Assembly (NCBI RefSeq): GCF_023276435.1 | Contig: NZ_JALLPO010000049.1 | Location: 1 to 64,000 of the forward strand | DNA from: Sphaerisporangium perillae | Lineage (GTDB): Bacteria > Actinomycetota > Actinomycetes > Streptosporangiales > Streptosporangiaceae | Length of the DNA: 64,000 bases | Direction of reading: 5' to 3' | Shown here: in pieces, positions 6,255-22,949 of the stretch | Position numbering within the stretch: the first letter of the stretch is position 1 | Layout of the letters: every line of letters begins with the position of its first letter | Translations under genes and position numbers: made by a program | Notes under the pieces: model-generated | The model's input: the letters and a program-made list of their open reading frames with translations, nothing else | Told to the model about the DNA's origin: nothing | Databases searched by the model: none

Positions 6255-6850
6255 TCGCCCTGGTAGCGCTGCTCGCGCCACGGGTCGCCGTAGTTGTGGT
6301 AGCCCGCCGTCTCCCAGAAGCCCGGCCAGTCTTCGTTGAGCAGCCGGATGCCGCGCACCCACTTGGCCGATTTCCAGAGGTAAAGGTGCGGCACGAGCAG
6401 CCGCGCGGGGCCGCCGTGCGCGGGGGCGAGCTCCTCCCCGTCGTATCGGTAGGCGATCCACGCCTTCCCGTCCAGCAGGTCCTCGAGCGGCAGGTTGGTG
6501 GTGTAGCCGCCGTAGGAGTAGGCCAGCGCGTACTCGGCGGCGGTCTCGACGTCCTCCATCAGGACGTCGAGCGAGACGCCTCGCCAGGTGGTGCCGAACT
6601 TGGACCACTTGGTGACGCAGTGCAGGTCGACGGTCGGCGTCTCGCTCGGCAGGGCGAGCAGCTCCTGCCAGGACCAGCGGTGGGTCTGCCCCGCCTCGGT
6701 GTCGATGGTGAACTCCCACCGGTCCAGCGGGACGCGCGGGGTGGGGCCGGCGGACAACACCGGGAAGTCGTGTGTGAGGTACTGGCCGGGCGGGAGCTGG
6801 ACGCCCTCGTCCCTCGGCCGGCCTCGGAAACCACGCGAGATGATGCCCAT
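6251..6850 (-). CDS. Sulfite oxidase-like molybdopterin oxidoreductase
   Basis: A 199-residue protein of the oxidoreductase molybdopterin-binding family. The Mo-coordinating Cys lies in DLHCVTKWSKFGTTW. Family motifs YSYGGYTTNLPLEDL, HGGPARLLVPHLYLWKS and KWVRGIRLL follow. There is no Tat signal, so it is cytoplasmic, unlike MsrP/YedY. The ATG at 6850 follows AAAGGGACCG. It is first in the operon with the ferredoxin-reductase-like and zinc-ribbon genes. The substrate is unknown; sulfite or S-oxide chemistry is inferred only from the family. Confidence 0.88.
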   Translation of the reverse strand: MGIISRGFRGRPRDEGVQLPPGQYLTHDFPVLSAGPTPRVPLDRWEFTIDTEAGQTHRWSWQELLALPSETPTVDLHCVTKWSKFGTTWRGVSLDVLMEDVETAAEYALAYSYGGYTTNLPLEDLLDGKAWIAYRYDGEELAPAHGGPARLLVPHLYLWKSAKWVRGIRLLNEDWPGFWETAGYHNYGDPWREQRYQGD

Positions 6851-7274
6851 CGGTCCCTTTCTCTCCCACCGCCGACGGCTGTTCCGATGATCTTCCCAGA
6901 GGAAGACGGCCTGCCTGGTTACCTGCGGACTGAACCTACGTGAACCAGGTCACACAGGCCCACAATAGCGAGCCCTGTCGGAAGCGAAACGTGGCATCCC
7001 TCCACCCCATACGTGGCATCCCTCCACGCGGGGCGCGCCTGCTTCGTGTCCGAGGCCGGCCGGGTCCGCTGGACGTGCCCTTCGTCCGGGCGGTCATGAA
7101 AGTCTCATCGGCTTCCGCTTGATCGGGCCGTGCGGCCTCGCCTACGCATTCGAGCTGTTGACCGCCTGTATCGAGCTGGCTAGCATCCGGGTAATTTACG
7201 CTGCCACCGAAACTTTCGTAACTCAATAGAAAATTTCAGCCCCGTGCCCTTCCGTTCCCCAGGGAGATCGCAGA
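6851..7274. other. Divergent intergenic region with a 17-bp direct repeat
   Basis: No gene is supported between the divergent molybdoenzyme operon and the GH115 gene. A perfect 17-base repeat ACGTGGCATCCCTCCAC occurs at 6989-7005 and 7011-7027 (22-bp period, two helical turns), a spacing typical of tandem regulator sites. The lower-GC part near 7180-7230 is a likely promoter zone for the plus-strand gene. Confidence 0.5.
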
Positions 7275-10200
7275 ATGAGAAGGTACGTCGCCGCGTCGCC
7301 GGCACCTCCCCATCCGCGCAGGCGAGCACCGCGGAGGCCGCTTCGGGTGCTGCTCTCGCTGGCGGTCGTCGCCGCCGCGGCCGCGGTGACCTCGCCCGCC
7401 CCTGCGACGGCCGTCACCACCCACCACGAGCCCGCCGACTCCGGCGCCTACATCGCCACCACCGGCGGATCAGGCCGCTTCCCCCTTGTGTCGGCCGGGA
7501 AGGCCGCGCCGCTCGTCGTCAGCGCCGCCGACCACGCGGGGGTCATCCGCGTGGTCGGCGACCTGCGGGCCGACCTCGAGCGGGTCACCGGCGTCAAGCC
7601 CGCCGTCTCCCTCGACCGCGTCCCGCAGGGCGACGTGGTGCTCGTCGGCACCATCGGCAAGAGCCCGATCATCGACGACCTCGTCAAGCGCGGAAAGCTC
7701 GACGTGACCGGGATCGCGGGCAAGTGGGAGACCTCCCTGGAGCAGGTCGTCGCGAACCCGCTCCCGGGCGTGCGCCGCGCGTTCGTCATCGCCGGCAGCG
7801 ACCAGCGCGGAACCATCTACGGCGCCTACGACGTCTCCAAGCAGATCGGCGTGTCCCCCTGGTACTGGTGGGACGACGTTCCTCCCCGCCACCGCGACGC
7901 GCTGTACGTGCTGCCCGGCCGGCACACCCAGGGCACGCCGAAGGTGAAGTACCGCGGCTTCTTCATCAACGACGAGAACCCCGCCCTCGGCACCTGGGCG
8001 CCCCGCTACTTCGGCCCCGGCCTCGCCGAGGGCTACCCGGGCGGCTTCAACAAGAAGTTCTTCGCCAAGGTCTTCGAGGTCATGCTCCGGCTGAAGGCCA
8101 ACTACCTGTGGCCGGCGGTCTGGGGCCGGGCGTTCGCCGAGGACGACCCCGAGAACCACAAGACGGCCACCGAGTACGGCGTCGTCATGGGCACCTCGCA
8201 CGAGGCGCCCATGATGCGCGGCATCGAGGAGTGGAACAGGCACGCCGTGGCCGCGCAGCGCGACAGCGCCGGCAACATCGTCACGCCGGGCCATGACCCG
8301 TACGGCGGCACCGGCGAATGGAGCTTCCGCCGCAACGGCGAGGCCATCAAGAAGTACTGGGCCGACGGCGTCCGCCGGATGAAGGAGCAGGACTTCGAGG
8401 GCGTCGTGACCCTGGGCATGCGCGGCAACGGCGACGTCGGCCTGCCCGACGGCGACGGCATCGAACTGATGGAGAGCATCCTCGCCGCCCAGCGGGAGAT
8501 CCTGGCCAAGGAGAGCGGCGAGCCCCTGGAGTCGATCCCGCAGGTGCAGACGCTCTACAAGGAGGTCCAGCGTTACTGGGACAAGGGCCTGCGCCCGCCG
8601 GACGACGTGACCGTCGTCTTCTGCGACGACAACTGGGGCAACATGCGCAAGCTGCCCGACCAGGCGCTGCCCAAGCGCAGCGGCGGCTACGGCATGTACT
8701 ACCACTTCGACTACGTCGGCGGCGGCCGCAACTACAAGTGGGCCGACACCGTCAACCTGGCCAACACCTGGGAGCAACTGCACCTCACCTACGACTACGG
8801 CGTGGACCGGCTCTGGGTGGTCAACGTGGGCGACATGAAGAACGAGGAGGAGCCGCTGCAGTTCTTCCTCGACTACGCCTGGGACCCCGGCCGCCGGCCG
8901 CTGGACCGGCTCGACGAGTGGGAGAAGCAGTACGCGGCGCAGAACTTCGGGCCCGAGCAGGCCTCGGCGATCGCCGACGTGCTCAGCGCCTACGGCCACC
9001 TGCAGTCGCGCCGCAAGCCGGAACTGCTGAACCGCCGGATCAGCCTCGACCCGGCCAAGGACCCCGCCACCGACTCCTCGGCCGTCGTCTACGACGACAA
9101 GGGCACCCCGTTCAGCCTGACCGCCTACCAGGAGATGGACCGGGTCACCGACGAGTGGCAGAGCCTGGCGGCCAAGGCCGAGAAGATCCGCGAGGCGCTG
9201 CCGTCCGGGTACGACGACGCCTACTACCAGCTGGTCTACTACCAGGTGAAGGCGACGGCGAACCTGTACGCGCTGCGCAGGGCGCAGTTCACCGACATCC
9301 TGTACGCCAAGCAGGGACGCGCCGCCACCAACGATCTGGCCGACCTGGCGCAGGCCCGGTTCGACGAGGACCAGGCGATGTCGGCGTACTACAACAAGAC
9401 CCTGGCAGCCGGGAAGTGGGACGGCTTCCAGTCGCAGCCGAAGATCGGCTACGGGGACGTGGAGCGGTACGGCCCGAACGCCCCCTGGCAGCAGCCCGAG
9501 AAGGACAACGTCGCCCTGCCGGACGCCTTCTACCCCCACCTGCAGCGCATCGAGGTCCCCGTCGCGGCGGAACTCGGCGTCGCGATCGACGGCTCCGACG
9601 AGTGGTGGCCGGCGGAGACGTCCCCGGCGGTGCTGCCGGCCTTCAGCCCGTACCAGTCCCAGCCGCAGCAGTACATCGAGGTGTTCAACCGCGGCACGAC
9701 CGCGTTCGACTACACCCTCAAGCCGTCCGTGCCCTGGGTGAGCGTCACGCCGAAGGCCGGACGCGTCGGCGAGCAGGTGCGCGCCACCGTGCGCGTCGAC
9801 TGGTCGCGCGCCCCGAAGGGCAGGACGGAGGTGCCCATCACCGTCACCGGAGCCGGCGCGAGCGTGGTGGTCAAGGCCGTCGTGGACAACCCCGTCACGC
9901 CGCCCTCGCAGGTCAAGGGATTCGTGGAGGCCGGCGGGCACGTCGCGGCCGAGGCGGCCCACCCGACCAGGACGGTCGGCGGCTCCGGCGTCACCTGGAC
10001 GCGCATTCCGGGCATCGGCAAGACTGGTGACGGCATGACGCCCAGCCCGGTCACGGCGGCGAGCCGGACGCCGGGCGGCGACGGCCCGCGCCTTGAGTAC
10101 ACGATGACGCTGTTCACCACCGGGCCGGTCAAGGTGTCGGCGGTCCTGTCGCCGAGGAACAACGTCCTGCCCGGCGACGGGCTGAAGTACGCCGTGTCGT

Positions 10201-14277: not shown

Positions 14278-14746
14278 CAGGCGAGGGGGACGCGGCCGGA
14301 AGGCGGTGCAGCGCCTCGACCAAGGGGGCGAGCTCGGGGATGGCCTCCGCCTCCGCCAGGGCCCTGACCAGGACCGCGTCGTGGGCCGGGCGGGCCCTGC
14401 TCAGCAGATCCCACCCCTCGGCGGTGAGCTCGGTGTAGATGCCCCGCCGGTCGTCCTGGCACAGGATGCGCGTCAGCAGCCCGCGATCTTGCAACCGGTT
14501 GACCAGCCGCGTGGTCGCGCTGCTGGACAGGGCCGCGGCGCGGGCGAGCTGCTGCATGCGCATGTGCCAGCCGTCCTGCCTCGACAGGGCGTCCAGCACG
14601 GTGTACTCGACGACGGACAGGTCGTGGCCGGACTGCAGCTCGCGTTCGAGGGCGGTCTCGATGAGGCCGTGCAGCGCCGCGAGGGTTCGCCAGCCCTGCG
14701 CGCGGACCTCCACCGCGTCGTCGCCGATTCCCATGACCGCTCCCAT
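14270..14746 (-). CDS. MarR-family transcriptional regulator
   Basis: A 158-residue winged-helix protein. The recognition region reads QQLARAAALSSSATTRLVNRL, followed by the wing QDDRRGIYTELTAEG (the D-x-R-G-x motif of MarR proteins). The ATG at 14746 follows GGAGGG with a 5-base spacer; an ATG four codons further in is an alternative. Its last codons (PSPAG) overlap the carboxypeptidase relic, so the natural C-terminus may have been replaced during rearrangement. It is divergent from the jet operon and could act on the shared intergenic region. Confidence 0.88.
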   Translation of the reverse strand: MGAVMGIGDDAVEVRAQGWRTLAALHGLIETALERELQSGHDLSVVEYTVLDALSRQDGWHMRMQQLARAAALSSSATTRLVNRLQDRGLLTRILCQDDRRGIYTELTAEGWDLLSRARPAHDAVLVRALAEAEAIPELAPLVEALHRLPAASPSPAG

Positions 14747-15115
14747 CGAGGCCCTCCGCGTGGGACGGCCGCTGATTCGCCCAAGGCAGCTTACCAGGCA
14801 CAGAGCAAATAGGTGCGTGTGCAAATATCTTGTCTCCCGTGCCACCGGGACGGCACGCACGGCCGCCGCCGTCCCGCCGGGCGTCGCCGCGCATGCCCGT
14901 CACGCGGAGGCGGATCTTCGTGTATCCATGTGTGTGATCGATCCTGTGTTCGCACGCAAGGCTCACGGAAGGCGTACGGAAGGCGCACGGACGGTCGCCA
15001 CCCATGTGGTGGGTTTGCCGGGGGAGAGGACGGGCCGCTTCCTCCGCGATGGGCGCTGATCGCCGCTGGAAGGCCGTTCCCGCGAACGGCCTCCCGCCGG
15101 CCGGGGGAGTGGGGA
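14747..15115. promoter_or_regulatory. Divergent MarR/jet intergenic region with direct repeats
   Basis: This 370-base region holds no gene. GCAAATA occurs at 14805-14811 and 14821-14827 (16-bp period; TATTTGC on the other strand), close to the MarR start, and could be its operator. Near 14960-14995 a short CACGGAAGGCG / TACGGAAGGCG / CACGGACGG repetition occurs. GCCGTTCCCGCGAACGGC near 15073 is an inverted repeat in the jetA leader. All functional readings are inference. Confidence 0.35.
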
Positions 15116-16663
15116 ATGAAGGACAGAGCCGTCACGGGCGGGTCGCGCGCGTTCGAGCTGGACGCGCTCGCGGTGAGCGACCGGTTCCGGTTGTTCAACT
15201 TCACCCGGCGCGACGACCACCTGGTGTACCTGTGGGTGCTGCGCGCGATGGACCGCCTCCGGGCCGTCCACCAGCTCCAGGCCCACCCCGACGACGTCGC
15301 CCGCGTGCTCGCCGAGTTGGGCCGGGCCTACGGCGACGCCCCTTCGGCCGACGACAACCTCCGCGCGCGGCTGGACGCCCTCGCCGACGACGGGGTCGTC
15401 CACCGCCTCGAGGACGCCTCCCGGGCCGGCAGCCTCGTCAGATACCGCAACCGCCAGTCGGTGTACCAGTTCAGCGAGCTGGGCTACCAGGCGTTCGCGG
15501 CCGTCGAGGAGGTCCTGGCCGCGCGGCCCGAGGACGCCAACCTCTCGCGGCTGGTGTTCTCCGACATCCTCGAAGACCTCAAGGCGCTGGCCGAGGCCAA
15601 CCGCTCGGGCCACGGCGAGCAGGTCTGGCGCAGGCTGTCGCGCCTGGACGCGGTCATGGAGGACATGGCCCGCCGCTCCGCGCGCTTCCACCTCACCCTC
15701 GGCGAGATCACCAGGTCCACCGACGCTTCGCCCGAGACGTTCCTGCGCTACAAGAACACCCTGCTCACGCACATGACCGACTTCATGGCCGAGCTCGACC
15801 GCTACCTGCCCCGGCTCGACAAGGCCGTCCGCGACGTCGAACGGACCGGCGTCGCCACGATGCTGGGCCGGGCCGCCGCGGCCGACGAGCGGCCGTTCAT
15901 GGACCACGGGGAGCGGCTCTCCGACTGGCGCCGCCGCTGGATGGTGCTGCGCGCCTGGTTCGCCGCCGACGGCGGCGAGTCCTCGCGGGCGGCCGAGCTG
16001 CGCGCCGCGACCAGGACCGGCGTGTCCGGCGTCATCGCGCTGCTCCGGCAGATCGCCGAGGCGCAGCGCGGCGGGGTCAACCGGTCGACCCAGCTCCGGC
16101 ACCTGGCCGAGTGGGTGTTCAACGCGCCCGACGAGGGCGCCGCGCACGCCCTGATGACCGCCGCGTTCAACGCGCGCACCGCACGCCATCTGGGCGGCGC
16201 GCACGACGACGCCGAGGACATCTCGGTCCGCTCCACCTGGTGGGACGCGCCCGGCGTGGAGATCTCCGTGCCGCTGTTCCGCCGGGGCAAGGCCCCGGCG
16301 CCGGGTGTCCCGCAGCCCGTCCGGGGACGGGCCGGCATCCGCGGTGAGCTGCGACGCCGCCAGGCGTCCCACCGCGCCGCCGAGCGGGAGGCCGCCGGCG
16401 GCCTGGTGGAGGCCGGGGTCCACGGGCGCGTCCTGGACGAGGCCGAGACCAAGGTGGTCCTGCGGCTGCTGACCCGGGCGCTGGAGGCCCGCACGGTCGT
16501 CGCCGGCCGGCTGCGCGCCGCGTCCGGAGGGAACGAGGTGATGACGGTCCGCCTGGTCCCGGCGCCGGAGGGCAGCGCGGTCCGCACGGTCCACGGCGTC
16601 CTGCACCTGCCCGGCCTGCGGCTGGACCTCGTCCCCGCCACCCACGCCAAGGGGACGCCGTGA
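15116..16663 (+). CDS. jetA: Wadjet type III JetA (DUF2397, TIGR02677)
   Basis: A 515-residue protein of the TIGR02677/DUF2397 family, the kleisin-like component of type III Wadjet systems. These are SMC-related complexes that recognise circular plasmid DNA by loop extrusion. Characteristic early segments are SDRFRLFNFTRRDDHLVYLW and RYRNRQSVYQFSELGYQAF; a long helical centre and a short C-terminal DUF part follow (VLRLLTRALEART). The ATG at 15116 follows GGGGGAGTGGGG. Its TGA overlaps the jetB ATG (TGATG). First gene of a three-gene operon; length is normal. Confidence 0.9.
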   Translation: MKDRAVTGGSRAFELDALAVSDRFRLFNFTRRDDHLVYLWVLRAMDRLRAVHQLQAHPDDVARVLAELGRAYGDAPSADDNLRARLDALADDGVVHRLEDASRAGSLVRYRNRQSVYQFSELGYQAFAAVEEVLAARPEDANLSRLVFSDILEDLKALAEANRSGHGEQVWRRLSRLDAVMEDMARRSARFHLTLGEITRSTDASPETFLRYKNTLLTHMTDFMAELDRYLPRLDKAVRDVERTGVATMLGRAAAADERPFMDHGERLSDWRRRWMVLRAWFAADGGESSRAAELRAATRTGVSGVIALLRQIAEAQRGGVNRSTQLRHLAEWVFNAPDEGAAHALMTAAFNARTARHLGGAHDDAEDISVRSTWWDAPGVEISVPLFRRGKAPAPGVPQPVRGRAGIRGELRRRQASHRAAEREAAGGLVEAGVHGRVLDEAETKVVLRLLTRALEARTVVAGRLRAASGGNEVMTVRLVPAPEGSAVRTVHGVLHLPGLRLDLVPATHAKGTP

Positions 16664-18060
16664 TGAGCGCGCGCGGCGTCGCGGCGGGCGTCCTGCCGAG
16701 CGACCTCGGCTCCTACCAGCAGGCCGTGCGGCTGGCCCTGACCAGCGACCTGATCACCGCGACACGCCCGCGGCCGGGCGCGCTCGACCACGTGCTGCAC
16801 TGGGCCGACCAGCTCACCCGCGACCTGCGCGAGCTGTTCGGCTACACGGTGATCGCGACCACCCGGCAGGTCCGGGTGGTGCGCCGCCTGGACGCGCTGG
16901 ACGACACCCAGCGGCACCTGTTCGCGAAGAAGGGCAAGCCGTTCGACCGCCGCCGCCTGGCCTACCTGTGCCTGGTGCTGGCGCTGTTCCAGCGCTCGCG
17001 GGTGGAGATCAGCCTCGCCGACCTGGTACGGGCCTTCGCCCCCGCCGCGAACGCGATCGAGGGGCTCGGGTTCGACCCGACCATCGGCGCGCACAAGGCC
17101 GCGGTCGTCGACTGCCTCGACTGGCTGGTCGAGCGGGGCGCGCTGCGGCTCTCGGACGGGTCGCTGGACTCCTGGGCGCACGACACCGAGCGGGGTGACG
17201 CCCTGTTCGACATCGACCACGACATCTGCGCGATCCTGTTCAAGCCCGCGCGCCCGGTGCAGCACCTCACGAGCGCGGCGGGCCTGCTGGAGGGCTCGGG
17301 CGGGGCCGGGCGGGCGCGTCCCGACGAGGCGGCCCGCCGCGCCCGGCGCCTGCTGGTGGAGTATCCGGTCGTCTACCTGGACCAGGTGGAGCCCGAGGTC
17401 GCCGAGGCCCTCCGCCACCCCGGCCTCGCCGACGGGCTGGCACGGCTCACCGGGCTGGCCGTGGAGCGCCGCGCGGAGGGTCTCATGCTGGCCGACCCCG
17501 GCGGGCGCTTCACCGACAAGCCGTTCCCCGGCCGGGGCGGAGCGGTCAACCGGGCGGCGGGCCTCCTCCTCGCCAAGATGGCCGACCTGCTGGAGGATCC
17601 AGGGGAGCGGCGGGCGCTGAGGTTCGTCGAGCCGCCCGCCGGCGCCGACGACCAGCGTGACCTGCTGGCGCGCGTCGATTCGGCGCTGCCGCACGCCGGG
17701 GTCGTCCACGAGCTGGCCTGGGCGCCGCCGCCCGCCCCTGACCCCGGCGCGGGCGGCGCGCCGCCGGCCGAGGTCGCGCTGGTGGAGCGGGCCAGGCTGT
17801 CGGCCATGGTCGCCGAGCTGTACGAGGAGCTGGGCGCGGCCTCCTTCTCCGCCGCGTGGCAGCACGACCAGGAGGGCCTGCTCGAGGCCGCGGTGACGCT
17901 CCTGGCCGAGCTGCGCCTGGTGCGGCGGCATCCCGGCGGGGTGCTGCTGCTCCCGGCGTTCGCCCGCTACCGCAACATCACCCTTGCGCTGCCCGCTAGC
18001 GGCAACGAGCAGGACGCCCTGCCGTTCCCGACGTCTCTCCCGGAGGACTCCGCTTCATGA
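16663..18060 (+). CDS. jetB: Wadjet type III JetB (DUF2398, TIGR02678)
   Basis: A 465-residue protein of the TIGR02678/DUF2398 family, the KITE-like winged-helix partner of the JetA kleisin and JetC SMC. Visible family features are HWADQLTRDLRELFGYTV near the N-terminus, FDRRRLAYLCLVLALFQRS, a middle LLVEYPVVYLDQVEPEV, and a C-terminal winged-helix-like LLAELRLVRRHPGG followed by AFARYRN. The start overlaps jetA (TGATG) and the end overlaps jetC (ATGA), so all three are co-translated. No catalytic motif is expected. Confidence 0.9.
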   Translation: MSARGVAAGVLPSDLGSYQQAVRLALTSDLITATRPRPGALDHVLHWADQLTRDLRELFGYTVIATTRQVRVVRRLDALDDTQRHLFAKKGKPFDRRRLAYLCLVLALFQRSRVEISLADLVRAFAPAANAIEGLGFDPTIGAHKAAVVDCLDWLVERGALRLSDGSLDSWAHDTERGDALFDIDHDICAILFKPARPVQHLTSAAGLLEGSGGAGRARPDEAARRARRLLVEYPVVYLDQVEPEVAEALRHPGLADGLARLTGLAVERRAEGLMLADPGGRFTDKPFPGRGGAVNRAAGLLLAKMADLLEDPGERRALRFVEPPAGADDQRDLLARVDSALPHAGVVHELAWAPPPAPDPGAGGAPPAEVALVERARLSAMVAELYEELGAASFSAAWQHDQEGLLEAAVTLLAELRLVRRHPGGVLLLPAFARYRNITLALPASGNEQDALPFPTSLPEDSAS

Positions 18061-21000
18061 CCCCCGTTCGCGGCCGCTTCAAGCCGTCCCGCGCAGGTGT
18101 GATCAACATCTGGGACTACATCGACGAGGAGTTCGTCTTCGCCGACGGCCGGCTGGTGCTGCGCGGGCACAACGGCTCGGGGAAGACCAAGGCCCTTGAG
18201 GTGCTGTTCCCGTTCGTCCTCGACGGGGTGAGCGACGCGCGGCGCCTGGACCCTTTCAGCGGCGAGAACCGCACGATGAAGTCCAACCTCCTCTACCGGG
18301 GCCAGGAGGCCGAGTACGGCTACGTGTGGATGGAGTTCACCCACGAGGACCCCGAAGAGCGGGACGCCGCCTCCTCTGACGGCGACGGCGACGGTGGCCC
18401 CGGCCCAGGCCCAGGCGCCGGGCCGGGCGGGGAGGAGGCCGTGACGCTGATCATCGGCCTGCGGGCCCACCGGCACCGCGACGGGGTCACGCCGTCGTTC
18501 TTCGTGACCGGCAGGCGCGTCGGCGTGGACTTCGGCCTGCTCTCCGCCGACTCCCGGCCGCTCACCGAGAAGCAGCTCAAGGCCGCCCTGGAGCCCGGGG
18601 CCCGCTACAGGACCGCCACCGACTACCGCGCCGCCGTGGACGCCCGCCTGTTCGGGCTCGGCAAGGAGCGGTACGCGCAGCTCCTGGACCTGCTGCTGGC
18701 GCTGCGCCGGCCGCTGCTCGCCAAGGACCTCGACCCGGTGAAGGTGTCGGAGACCCTCAGCGCGGGGCTCAGCCCCGTCGACCAGGTCCTCGTCGAGCAG
18801 GCCGCGCGGGACTTCGAGAACCTCGCCGCCGTCCAGAGGCTCTTCGACGACCTCACCCTGGCCGACGGGGCGGTCAAGGAGTTCCTGGTCCACTACACCG
18901 CCTACCTCCGCACCCACGTCCGCCACCGGCTCGACCGCGTCGGGGAGCGGCTGGAGGGCACGGCCGGCGGCGCCGCGCGCATCGCGCAGGCCGCGTCCGA
19001 GCTGCGCCGCGCCGGCACGGCCCGCGCCGAGGCCATGGCCGGGCGGGAGGCCGCGGAGGCCGAGCTGGCCAGGTACGACGCCAGGCTCGCCGCGCTGAAG
19101 CAGCACGAGGCCTACCAGGCAAGGGGAGAGCTGGACGGGCTTCGCCGCCGGATCGCCGACGAGGGCGCGGCCATCGGCAAGGAGCGGCGGCGCCTGGGGC
19201 AGGCGCGCGAGCACGTCGCCAAACTCGGCGCCGAGGCGGCCAAGGTCGCCGCGCGGCTCGGCGACGCGCGTGCCAAGGCCGACCGGCACCTCAACGAGCT
19301 GGTCGAGGCCGCCGGGAGGGCCGGCATCGCGGGAGGCGGCGAGATCGCCGAGGCCGCGCCCGAGGAGGGCCTGGCCCTGGCCAGGGCGCGCGCCGCCGCG
19401 AGGCGCGGCGACGTCGAGACCGTACGCGGGCACCTGGCCGCGCTGGAGGCCGCCGAAGCCGGGCGGAAGGGCGCGGAGAGGTCGGCCGAGGAGGTCGACC
19501 AGGCGGTCTCCGACGGGCAGGAGCGGCTGTCGGCCGCGCAGGAGGGGGTCGACCAGGCCCGCCGGACGGCGCGCGCCGCCCTGGCCCGCTGGGCGGAGCG
19601 ATGGGTCACCGCCCCCGATCCGGCCATGGCGACCGCCGCCGATCCGGTCGTGGCGACCGCCGCCGATCCGGTCGTGGCGACCGCCGCCGATCCGGCCGTG
19701 GCGACCGCCGCCGACCTCGCGGCGCTGGAGGAGACCCTCGACGCGATCGGTGAGCCGGGCGCGCGGCGGCTGCCGGAGGTCTTCGGCGAGCTGGCGGAGG
19801 AGCGCCGCGGCCAGATGATCGAGGCCAGGGCCCGCGCGGGCGCCGAACAGGCGCGGGTCACGGCGCTCGTGCGCGATCTGCGCGCCGAGCGCGAGGCGGT
19901 GGCCGCCGAGCGCGACGACGCCCCGCCCGGCGACGACCTGCGCACCGCCGACCGTGAGGGGCGGCCGGGCGCGCCGCTGTGGCGGCTGGTCCGCTTCGCC
20001 GGCGCGGTCGGCGACGGCGATGCCGCGGGCATCGAGGGCGCCCTGTACGGGGCGGGGCTGCTGACCGCCTGGGTCCATCCCGATCCCGAGCTGACCCTGG
20101 CGGAGCTGGCGGCCGGGCAGGCCGACGGGTACCTGGTCGCCCTGCCCGAGGATCGGCGGCCGGCGGGGCGGACCCTCGCCGACGTCCTGGTAGCCGAGGA
20201 GCAGGACATGGTCCCCGCCGGGGTCGTGGCAGCCGTCCTGCGCTCGATCGCCGTCGACGACGATCTCGCGCGGTCCTTCCCCGCCACCCCCGCGGTCAGC
20301 GCGCGGGCCACGTTCGGCTTCGGCCCCCATCTCGGCGGCCGGCCCAAGGCGGCGGCGGAGTACATCGGGGCGACCAACCGGGCCGCCCGCCGTCTGGCCC
20401 GCCTCGCCGAGTACGACCGGCTCATCGCGGCGCACCAGGCGACCCTGGAAGGCCTGGCCGAGGAGTCCGAACGCCTCGGCGGGCTCGCGGCCGACTTCGG
20501 CCGCGCCAGGAAGGAGCTCCCCGAGACCGGGCCGATCCTCACGGCGGCGCGCGGCGTCGCCGACCGGGCCACCCGGCTGGCGGTGGCGCGGGGACGGCTG
20601 GCGGAGGCCGCCAAGGAGCTCGACGGCGCGGTCGCGGAGGTCGGCGCGGCGGGCCGCAGGCTGCGTCAGGCCGCCGCCGAGCTGTCGATGCCCCGCGACC
20701 CCCGCGAGGTGGACGCCGTCGCCCAGGCGCTGGACGATCTCACCCGCGAGGCCGAGGGGTTGCGCGCCGAACGCGAGAAGGCCGCCACGGCCGAGGGGGA
20801 CCTCGCCGAGCGCGAGGAGACCATCGAGCGGCTCGGCCGGGAGCACGCCGAGGCGGCCGCCGCGCTCGGCGACCGCGAGGGGGCGCACGCCGTGCTGGTC
20901 GAGCGGCTGGAGACGCTGGAACGCACCTTCGACGCCGACCTGACGGAGGTGCTCAGGCAGATCGGCGAGACCGAGGGCCTGATCGCCGCGGCCCGCGCGA

Positions 21001-22472
21001 CCAGGGGCGAGCACGACCGGGCCGCGGCGGCCGAGCGGGAGGCCGAGGTGCTCGCCGGGGCCGAGCTCGAGCACGGCCGCGAGTCCCTCGCGGCCGCCTT
21101 CGCGGCGCTCGCCGGGGAGGTCGCCGAGTTCGTCCCCTACACCCAGGCCGATCTGCGCCCGCTGGCCGGTGTCACCGATCCCCGGCCCTGGCCGCTGGAG
21201 AACCACCCCCAGGTCCCGGAGCAGGCGGCCAAGGGCGTCGCCGACCTGATGCTCGCCGACCCGCCGCCCGACCCGCTGGAGGCGGTGCGGGCGACCCTGC
21301 CCTCCGACGCGCTTGTGCTGATCGACGCCTACGACGCGGCGACGCGGGGAGGTCGGGCCGTGACGAGCGCGGCGCTGAAGAGCAGCTTGGACCGCGTCTC
21401 CAACGCGCTGCGCGACTTCCAGGCGGCGCTGGAGGGGTGCCAGGAGGACTACCGGCTCGACTGGGAGCCCGGCGCGGTGCTGGCCGTCCACGTCATCGAC
21501 GCCGACGGCCGGATGCCGGTGTCGGCGTTCGCCCGCGCCGTCGCCGAACGCGCCGGGGAGCAGGGCGTCCTGCTGGAGGACCGCGAGCGCACGGTCCTTG
21601 AGGACGAGCTGCTCACGAGCCTCGCCCAGCAGATCCACTCGCGGGTGGTCGCCGCCAAGGACCTGGTGCGCGGCATGAACGCCGACACCCGTTCCAAGCC
21701 CATGTCCTCGGGGACCACGATCGGCATCCGGTGGGTGCAGTCGGACAAGATCGACGACCGGCGGCGCGCCGTGGCGGCGCTGCTGGTGCGCGACGCCGCG
21801 GGCGCCGGCCACCAGGGGCTCTCGGCGCTGCGCGGGCACCTCAGGCAGATGATCAGGGACTACCGGGGCCGCAACTCCCGCGCCACCTACAAGGAGGCGC
21901 TCGCCGCCGTCCTGGACTACCGCTCGTGGTACACCTTCGAGCTGCTGATGGCCCGGCGCGGCGAGCCCGAGGTCCGGCTGACCCGGGCCAGGCACTCACA
22001 GATGTCGGGCGGGGAGAAGTCCGCCTCGATCCACCTGCCGCTGTTCGCGGCGGCCAACGCGCTGTACTCCTCGGGCCGGGCGTCGTGCCCCCGGGTGATC
22101 GCGCTGGACGAGGCGTTCGCCGGCATCGACGACAACTACAAGCCCGAGCTGCTCGGGCTGACGGTGCGGTTCGACCTCGACCTGTTCATGACCGGCCACG
22201 ACCTGTGGTGCACCTATCCGACGGTCCCCATGATCGCCCATTACGATCTGCTGCACGACAGCGAGCTGCGGACGGTGTCGACCATCCTCGCGCTCTGGGA
22301 CGGGGCCCAGGTCTTCGACGCGGACGCCGGGTACGCCGGCAACGACGAGCTGGTCAAGGAGCTGCTCGGCTTCACCCCGCGCCGTCACGTTCCCCCCGGC
22401 TCCCCGCAGGCCACCCTCTACGACGGTGAGGACGACGAGGAGGACTCCAGTGACCCGGACGCAACGGCCTGA
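18057..22472 (+). CDS. jetC: Wadjet type III JetC SMC-like ATPase (TIGR02680)
   Basis: A 1471-residue SMC/SbcC-like ATPase. Walker A near residue 42 is GHNGSGKTKALEVLFPF. A D-loop/Walker B near the end is PRVIALDEAFAGIDD, preceded by the ABC signature QMSGGEKSASIHL. Between them are long Ala/Glu/Arg coiled-coil arms with a mid-protein hinge-like globular part (about residues 640-770). The ATG overlaps the jetB stop. It powers DNA loop extrusion in Wadjet complexes. One arm contains a four-copy DPVVATAA-type repeat encoded by exact 24-bp units. The expected next gene, jetD (DUF2399 Toprim nuclease), is absent. Confidence 0.92.
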   Translation: MTPVRGRFKPSRAGVINIWDYIDEEFVFADGRLVLRGHNGSGKTKALEVLFPFVLDGVSDARRLDPFSGENRTMKSNLLYRGQEAEYGYVWMEFTHEDPEERDAASSDGDGDGGPGPGPGAGPGGEEAVTLIIGLRAHRHRDGVTPSFFVTGRRVGVDFGLLSADSRPLTEKQLKAALEPGARYRTATDYRAAVDARLFGLGKERYAQLLDLLLALRRPLLAKDLDPVKVSETLSAGLSPVDQVLVEQAARDFENLAAVQRLFDDLTLADGAVKEFLVHYTAYLRTHVRHRLDRVGERLEGTAGGAARIAQAASELRRAGTARAEAMAGREAAEAELARYDARLAALKQHEAYQARGELDGLRRRIADEGAAIGKERRRLGQAREHVAKLGAEAAKVAARLGDARAKADRHLNELVEAAGRAGIAGGGEIAEAAPEEGLALARARAAARRGDVETVRGHLAALEAAEAGRKGAERSAEEVDQAVSDGQERLSAAQEGVDQARRTARAALARWAERWVTAPDPAMATAADPVVATAADPVVATAADPAVATAADLAALEETLDAIGEPGARRLPEVFGELAEERRGQMIEARARAGAEQARVTALVRDLRAEREAVAAERDDAPPGDDLRTADREGRPGAPLWRLVRFAGAVGDGDAAGIEGALYGAGLLTAWVHPDPELTLAELAAGQADGYLVALPEDRRPAGRTLADVLVAEEQDMVPAGVVAAVLRSIAVDDDLARSFPATPAVSARATFGFGPHLGGRPKAAAEYIGATNRAARRLARLAEYDRLIAAHQATLEGLAEESERLGGLAADFGRARKELPETGPILTAARGVADRATRLAVARGRLAEAAKELDGAVAEVGAAGRRLRQAAAELSMPRDPREVDAVAQALDDLTREAEGLRAEREKAATAEGDLAEREETIERLGREHAEAAAALGDREGAHAVLVERLETLERTFDADLTEVLRQIGETEGLIAAARATRGEHDRAAAAEREAEVLAGAELEHGRESLAAAFAALAGEVAEFVPYTQADLRPLAGVTDPRPWPLENHPQVPEQAAKGVADLMLADPPPDPLEAVRATLPSDALVLIDAYDAATRGGRAVTSAALKSSLDRVSNALRDFQAALEGCQEDYRLDWEPGAVLAVHVIDADGRMPVSAFARAVAERAGEQGVLLEDRERTVLEDELLTSLAQQIHSRVVAAKDLVRGMNADTRSKPMSSGTTIGIRWVQSDKIDDRRRAVAALLVRDAAGAGHQGLSALRGHLRQMIRDYRGRNSRATYKEALAAVLDYRSWYTFELLMARRGEPEVRLTRARHSQMSGGEKSASIHLPLFAAANALYSSGRASCPRVIALDEAFAGIDDNYKPELLGLTVRFDLDLFMTGHDLWCTYPTVPMIAHYDLLHDSELRTVSTILALWDGAQVFDADAGYAGNDELVKELLGFTPRRHVPPGSPQATLYDGEDDEEDSSDPDATA
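19617..19712 (+). repeat. 24-bp in-frame tandem repeat inside jetC
   Basis: Four units start at 19617, 19641, 19665 and 19689 with consensus GATCCGGTCGTGGCGACCGC plus CGCC. Units 2 and 3 are identical; the outer two differ by one or two bases. The unit is 8 codons, so the reading frame is kept and each copy adds DP(V/A)(V/M)ATAA. It sits in a coiled-coil arm and interrupts the heptads with Pro. Confidence 0.9.
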
Positions 22473-22542
22473 CCTGCGGGTCCTCTCCGCCCCGTCTCCG
22501 TGGGGCTGGACCGGAACCGCCAAAACGGACACCTTAAAGTAA
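22450..22542 (+). other. Orphan GTG-start ORF at the position expected for jetD
   Basis: A GTG at 22450 lies inside the end of jetC and opens a 30-codon frame (VTRTQRPDLRVLSAPSPWGW, then TGTAKTDTLK) closed by TAA at 22540. Overlapping starts of this kind are how the preceding jet genes are coupled, so this could be the stub of a deleted jetD. The 30 residues do not resemble DUF2399 proteins, and the sequence after 22530 drops in GC, suggesting a breakpoint. It is probably not a functional gene. Confidence 0.3.
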
Positions 22543-22630
22543 TTCCACAAAGACGTGTCAACCCCATCAGAACGGGCACGCGACTCCTCGGCAGAGACCG
22601 CATCAGGCCACTCACTCTCATGGGATCGCT

Positions 22631-22912
22631 ATGGTCATCCAGGACACCGTCATACCGGCCGTTTCGTGGCTACGTCGTGCCGCCTGCCGCGGTGAGGACC
22701 CCGAGTTGTTCTTCCCGATCTCGGCGAAGGGCCCCGGCCACGCCCAGCACGAGCGGGCCAAGGCCGTCTGCCGTCGATGCCCCGTGCAGAACCCGTGCCT
22801 TGAGTACGCGCTGAGGACCGGCCAGGAGCACGGCATCTGGGGAGGCACCGACCCCGACGAGCGCAGGGTGAGCGCCGCGAGGGGGCAGGACCGGCACGTG
22901 CGCATCGGATAG
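22631..22912 (+). CDS. WhiB-family Fe-S transcriptional regulator
   Basis: A 93-residue Wbl protein. The four cluster ligands are in AACRGEDPELFF and AVCRRCPVQNPCLEYAL (C...CxxCxxxxxC), and the beta-turn GIWGGTDPDERR is followed by a basic C-terminus, as in the WhiB1/WblE type. It binds a 4Fe-4S cluster and typically acts with the main sigma factor; oxygen or nitric oxide sensing is known in the family. The ATG at 22631 has only a weak GGGAT ribosome site. It is monocistronic, between the jet operon and the convergent ngc locus. Which Wbl class it belongs to is uncertain. Confidence 0.9.
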   Translation: MVIQDTVIPAVSWLRRAACRGEDPELFFPISAKGPGHAQHERAKAVCRRCPVQNPCLEYALRTGQEHGIWGGTDPDERRVSAARGQDRHVRIG

Positions 22913-22949
22913 CGGCCGGCTCTCGGGTGTGCCGTGGCGCGGGGAGAGG

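Follow-up and report, generated by a model that had tools for sequence, protein, structure and literature searches.

A type II Wadjet operon of Sphaerisporangium perillae without jetD, and apparent repeated loss of the nuclease gene among relatives that keep the motor genes

Wadjet action has been described mostly for type I systems, in which, according to the accessible text of the papers concerned, JetABC senses small circles by extruding their DNA and JetD cuts them (PMC10586767, PMC12647877); cleavage of naked circular DNA is also described for a type II system, from Neobacillus vireti (PMC12647877, accessible text). In the MksBEFG system of Corynebacterium glutamicum, which is Wadjet type I, MksG is the nuclease (PMC10123090), and the system is described, in the portion of the source at hand, as having no role in chromosome folding (PMC7083940). 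MksBEF of Pseudomonas aeruginosa is presented, in the available parts of the reports, as acting on the chromosome and as likely to have arisen by loss of JetD (PMC10586767; also PMC7083940). How complexes built on SMC (structural maintenance of chromosomes) proteins move between immunity and chromosome work is an open question. Here we analyse a jetABC operon of Sphaerisporangium perillae, lying in a 64,000-nucleotide stretch of contig NZ_JALLPO010000049.1 (positions 1 to 64,000, the window), which lacks jetD and whose relatives appear to have taken such a step repeatedly.

We favour on balance the view that this is a type II Wadjet operon from which jetD has gone, and whose JetABC motor would still be a working ATPase complex kept by selection. 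Judged by sequence comparison, the best-supported placement of the locus is as a nuclease-free, still selected JetABC that forms part of a recurrent loss of jetD in a type II lineage. The features concerned are these:

15116-16663, plus strand: jetA, 515 amino acids, DUF2397, kleisin-like subunit; PADLOC JetA2 at E 7.1e-161.
16660-18060, plus strand: jetB, 466 amino acids, GTG start, DUF2398, KITE-like; Pfam E 9.3e-52, PADLOC JetB2 E 6e-160.
18057-22472, plus strand: jetC, 1471 amino acids, SMC-like ATPase, TIGR02680; Pfam SbcC_Walker_B E 4.7e-22.
22450-22542, plus strand: GTG frame of 30 codons overlapping the end of jetC, with no recognisable jetD remnant.
22473-22630, no strand assigned: the place expected for jetD, taken up entirely by the whiB spacer and the region upstream of that gene; the contig has no DUF2399, and a similar spacer is present in loci L006 and L008.
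22631-22912, plus strand: whiB regulator, unrelated, at the end of the locus; Pfam Whib E 1.2e-25.

The three jet frames are complete and overlap by four bases at both junctions, jetA/jetB and jetB/jetC, and the first-pass annotation of this DNA was right in calling them intact and coupled and in placing them. JetA, scanned as a longer frame of 616 amino acids, matches Pfam DUF2397 at E 7.6e-128, and JetC matches the PADLOC JetC2 profile with 1199 bits over positions 9-1354 of 1361, with Walker A (GHNGSGKT), signature (MSGGE) and Walker B (VIALDEAF) motifs all intact. The NCBIfam models TIGR02677 and TIGR02680 pass their cut-offs; TIGR02678, that for JetB, gives E 3.5e-29 yet, at 102.1 bits, falls short of the 124.65 bits of its curated cut-off. 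Sequence searches matched no solved chains other than JetA and JetC of PDB 9qe0/9qe1. The type III label given earlier does not hold: PADLOC matches the three proteins best to JetA2, JetB2 and JetC2, and among all the matches it lists for them at E up to 0.001 there are only type 2 and type 1 names and no type 3. The locus is thereby Wadjet type II, this being a typing by profile name against a library whose content of type 3 models for these subunits was unchecked.

The locus thus resembles type II Wadjet in the families of its three proteins, in the order of the genes and in the way they are coupled. It differs in having no JetD: the whole-assembly search for DUF2399 bore out the earlier statement that jetD does not follow jetC, finding none on this contig, so that plasmid restriction would lack its defining step, cleavage, at this locus. 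Its content of SMC, kleisin and KITE genes without MksG/JetD is that of MksBEF, a Wadjet-like set that does without the Toprim nuclease (MksG). MksBEF is related to type I systems, whereas profiles assign the window's proteins, known from sequence alone, to type II. MksBEFG of C. glutamicum is, like a complete Wadjet operon, a four-gene plasmid-control system, and in an actinobacterium, but unlike the locus described here it has its nuclease and is type I.

Immediately after jetC the sequence is as had been described, a GTG overlapping the jetC end and opening 30 codons, then a fall in GC content from 0.711 (22300-22472) to 0.615 (the spacer, 22473-22620), then whiB. The 30-codon frame was considered as a remnant of jetD and rejected: its peptide is no nearer to JetD N-termini than are its own shuffles (p 0.78, 2000 shuffles), and so is not a visible remnant.

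Scanning the contigs of genomes with the window's JetA yielded 60 related loci (L numbers; genomes have G numbers and contigs C numbers), in which jetD was called by its profile. It follows jetC in 26, jetC comes last in 25, and nine are unjudged, either ending too early (L015, L032, L042, L043, L050, L058, L062, L063) or, in L054, having a truncated jetC. The jetD-less set used below comprises 27 loci, namely the window, the 25 and L074 (genome G002), each with at least 1.8 kb of sequence beyond jetC. The nearest relatives, L006-L008, are also from Sphaerisporangium and have JetA 88-93% identical to the window's, L008 being that of Sphaerisporangium melleum; in L006 and L008, as in the window, the whiB spacer directly follows jetC. 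Among 11 genomes of the genus, JetA was found in nine and DUF2399 in four. No DUF2399 was found in 16 of the 27 jetD-less genomes, these being G002, G003, G005 and G009 in the genus and 12 of the 22 outside it. Of the two options offered by the first-pass annotation, a disarmed loop extruder or a JetD encoded elsewhere, the first is the better supported, given these 16 genomes and a JetABC that is intact and constrained.

The second option was followed by searching the whole S. perillae assembly (9.3 Mb, 120 contigs, 99.28% complete), which contains a single DUF2399, on contig C26. Taken literally it holds: the gene exists, but as the fourth and last of a second, diverged jetABCD operon (L002) whose JetA, JetB and JetC are only 37-49% identical to those of the window, and the three closest jetD-less relatives (G003, G005 and G009, to which L007, L008 and L006 respectively belong) gave no DUF2399 match. 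That the C26 JetD serves the window's JetABC in trans, leaving plasmid cleavage intact, is to us unlikely. The gene is complete and has a Toprim-like motif, DFDWTG (a sequence search matched it to no solved PDB chain), and its own jetA (L002 2297-3861, G000:C26) changes frame near L002 3345, which may leave that JetD free; the break could be a sequencing error in place of a true frameshift. Strong DUF2399 matches lie elsewhere in nine of the 22 jetD-less genomes outside the genus, but in seven of these nine that jetD is accompanied on its contig by a jetA of its own, no more than about 8 kb away. Supply in trans also fits poorly with the 16 genomes that gave no DUF2399; a search for the type I nuclease domain JetD_C (PF09983), covering the genus and the 12 outside genomes without DUF2399, found it in just two of the 16, G003 (weakly) and G021.

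jetD appears, from sequence comparison, to have been lost several separate times among the relatives, with the motor intact. A tree of JetA plus JetB with 47 rows requires at least nine changes in jetD status, be they gains or losses (bootstrap range 8-10), of which at least seven are forced by well-supported branches; a quick tree of 60 rows, without L074-L076, gives ten. The 47 rows hold 26 of the 27 jetD-less loci (L060, on a long branch, was omitted) and 21 of the 30 jetD-bearing ones (L002, L038, L045, L047, L049, L051, L056, L061 and L081 were omitted). Such a tree counts changes and by itself gives no direction, and it would also suit an ancestral JetABC to which JetD, an optional later addition, was joined repeatedly. 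We consider that history very improbable. JetD distances follow those of JetA, JetB and JetC (r 0.87, 0.89 and 0.93, 378 pairs), and for many of the JetD subclades there is a counterpart in JetABC, the deeper JetD branches being uncertain; the C26 outgroup and the judged Streptomyces and Catenulispora-Actinospica clades carry jetD; and three jetD-less loci keep jetD-like stubs. Since JetD tracks JetABC and these stubs persist, losses fit best, and we infer that most of the changes were losses.

The stubs came from a search of 899 short frames, the E-values being given for that number: one, C-terminal, in L044 (E 1.7e-4), and two, N-terminal, in L024 (E 3.7e-3) and L031 (E 4.3e-3), all just after jetC. 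In shuffle tests neither L031 nor L024 was equalled (0/500), L025 gave p 0.03 and L023 p 0.136; the L044 stub was bettered by none of 1000 shuffles when compared with JetD C-termini, although the best shuffle scored 67 against its 68. Only L044, L024 and L031 are counted as stubs.

Loci with and without jetD can have the same flanks, the gene being absent from between them in the latter. Seven jetD-less loci of the Nocardiopsis group have flanks in common with the jetD-bearing L030 and L036, six other jetD-less loci have upstream DNA in common with the jetD-bearing L033 and L059, and the DNA downstream of L009 is common to five jetD-bearing Microbispora loci. In L022 and L026 homology to L036 returns 55 and 109 bases after the jetC stop, at a point 37 bases beyond jetD; in L018, compared with L016, it returns 28 bases after the jetC stop, and the matching point in L016 lies some 370 bases beyond jetD; and in L009 there is first 0.87 kb of other DNA, with homology returning within the final 32 bases of jetD. 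The deletion joint anticipated by the first-pass annotation can thus be seen in other genera, though not in the window's own clade. Because some closely related species with and without jetD have the same chromosomal place, the passage of SMC complexes between immunity and chromosome work can be tested by comparing neighbours.

Whether the motor has been kept was assessed from the integrity and the constraint of its genes. By the criterion of one open frame over nearly the whole query, JetA is intact in 26, JetB in 27 and JetC in 25 of the 27 jetD-less loci; the exceptions are JetA of L041 and JetC of L017, where the match leaves the open frame, and JetC of L007, which is found as two pieces of a single frame and has an insertion. 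All 27 loci have both Walker A and the ABC signature. Median ratios of non-synonymous to synonymous change (dN/dS) in jetD-less and jetD-bearing pairs are 0.165 and 0.149 for JetA, 0.204 and 0.180 for JetB, and 0.30 and 0.21 for JetC (pairwise NG86; 14 and 11 pairs, non-independent, the medians taken by hand; one jetD-bearing JetC pair is of 708 codons). The ratio is also far below 1 within the window's four-species jetD-less clade (five of six pairs computed, dS 0.35-0.60). Neutral drift at 0.2 changes per site, by substitutions only, would have put about ten stops in the window's jetC. The low ratios and this expectation together indicate that JetABC remains under constraint where JetD is absent, if perhaps slightly less for JetC.

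A different outcome of the same loss would be decay, in which the cost of an unrestrained nuclease made jetD the first to go and JetABC is what remains, itself turning into a pseudogene. That one gene has gone repeatedly does suit a cost of JetD, and further erosion is seen in L054 and in L078 (G001). We nevertheless consider decay rather unlikely, in view of the ATPase motifs kept in every complete jetD-less locus and of dN/dS values far below 1 even at divergences where drift should have broken jetC.

The reading of a selected motor that has shed its nuclease has several observations to its discredit. Ten of the 27 jetD-less genomes, that of the window included, have a strong DUF2399 elsewhere, which would allow supply in trans there, and one further genome, G017, has a weak match. 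L054, from Streptomyces, is decaying, with jetC truncated and jetD absent, and the genus itself contains a further-reduced locus, L078 (G001:C9:110000-129999, reversed strand), with jetA at 6399-7886, jetB at 7924-9216 and no jetC or jetD match after jetB. JetC is somewhat less constrained in jetD-less pairs, the modest difference that decay would also produce, and some of the pairs (L009-L065, L029-L034) may contain divergence older than the losses. The E-values of the L024 and L031 stubs are modest. The window's four-species clade has no scar, no stub and no jetD-bearing relative at the same site, so that loss there is read from the tree only; L075 and L076, which bear jetD in the same genus, were tried as same-site relatives and rejected, having no downstream DNA in common with the window and lying elsewhere in the tree. 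Motifs and dN/dS, moreover, do not demonstrate extrusion of DNA. Lastly, no class of alignment column is eroded specifically in jetD-less proteins as a JetD docking site might be: columns conserved with jetD and variable without number 1 in JetA, 5 in JetB and 14 in JetC, and the reverse 13, 7 and 25 (16 jetD-bearing against 21 jetD-less rows, thresholds slightly unequal between directions), a result that neither supports nor refutes a new role for JetABC.

A non-homologous nuclease or other effector, perhaps encoded at an unlinked place, might have replaced JetD, as the first-pass annotation allowed in considering relatives that end with jetC and have a different nuclease. Many relatives do end with jetC; a common replacement nearby was not found. 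Comparison of frames of at least 100 amino acids in the flanks, in 339 clusters, revealed no replacement nuclease common to jetD-less loci, and only three clusters are confined to jetD-less loci while spanning more than one group, each in two loci (L026/L039, L023/L057, L007/L040), the example shown lying upstream. In favour of a replacement, at L009 17484-18353, about 0.87 kb, a frame that looks by eye like a methyltransferase stands where other Microbispora have jetD, and in L017, L020, L029, L034 and L035 of the Nocardiopsis group more than 2.6 kb of other DNA precedes the return of homology to jetD-bearing relatives. In L022 and L026, on the other hand, homology is back within 110 bases of the jetC stop. 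We regard replacement as improbable.

On the favoured account, that of a selected motor without nuclease, JetA (kleisin), JetB (KITE) and a JetC dimer would assemble into the usual motor, be loaded onto DNA and use ATP to extrude loops. No cut would follow, because there is no JetD to be triggered once a small circle is fully extruded. Such a motor would be kept by the cell for work in which extrusion or compaction is enough, probably DNA folding or segregation, as with MksBEF of P. aeruginosa; both the assembly and extrusion by this complex and its task are inferred here.

Repeated loss of the cutter with the motor intact suggests that the motor is useful without cutting. This opens a wider proposition, which we put forward tentatively: that in this type II lineage the nuclease is an optional module, dropped independently many times from a JetABC that stayed under selection and whose primary job needs no cutting, perhaps the holding or silencing of small circular DNA by complete extrusion, or chromosome folding. 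If true, these loci would form a natural series of conversions of an SMC complex from defence to housekeeping, or from cutting to silencing.

How widespread such loci may be is indicated by a survey of 249 genomes of the order, in which JetA and DUF2399 alone were looked at, with up to six JetA and 14 DUF2399 candidates scored per genome. DUF2397 occurs in 180 of the 249, with a full-length score (E <= 1e-100) in 162, and in 40 of these 162 no DUF2399 was found. By band of JetA score, a crude stand-in for lineage, the genomes in which it was not found are 4 of 66 (high), 27 of 78 (middle, the window's band) and 9 of 18 (low). A JetABC match is accordingly no evidence of plasmid restriction. 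PADLOC is described, in the accessible part of its report, as needing all four genes for Wadjet and placing MukFEB-like sets under 'other' (PMC9252829), so loci like the window's would probably be left out of a strict count. In the literature searched, mainly papers outside subscription, the accessible text made no mention of jetD being lost repeatedly in type II systems, and 'Wadjet' combined with 'DUF2397' gave no match.

Past whiB lie binding-protein-dependent transporter genes on the opposite strand. DNA of 22500-22925 is matched in all 11 genus genomes searched, S. perillae included, and the site just before whiB is variable, holding jetABC here (window 14300-22540) and other genes in other species of the genus. 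In G003, 11.6 kb of predicted genes separate jetC from whiB; from the starts of their translations, with no family search made, we take these to resemble a nitrate reductase set.

Three further observations concern individual relatives. In L056 (Actinomadura rifamycini) JetD, at 7992-9152, has TQG at a site where TEG or AEG is found in the remaining complete JetDs close to the window's kind; the site is presumably that of the Toprim glutamate, and the L056 protein is possibly an inactive nuclease. L029, from a record named Glycomyces fuscus, has its jet locus nested in Nocardiopsis, with flanks in common, which points to a mislabelled record or a transfer. Fifteen of the 22 jetD-less genomes outside the genus (G012, G014-G016, G019-G025, G027-G029, G031) carry an extra gene matching only positions of about 298-482 of DUF2397 (E about 1e-16 to 1e-22), which resembles the JetA C-terminus and is remote from the jet operon, being megabases away or on a different contig.

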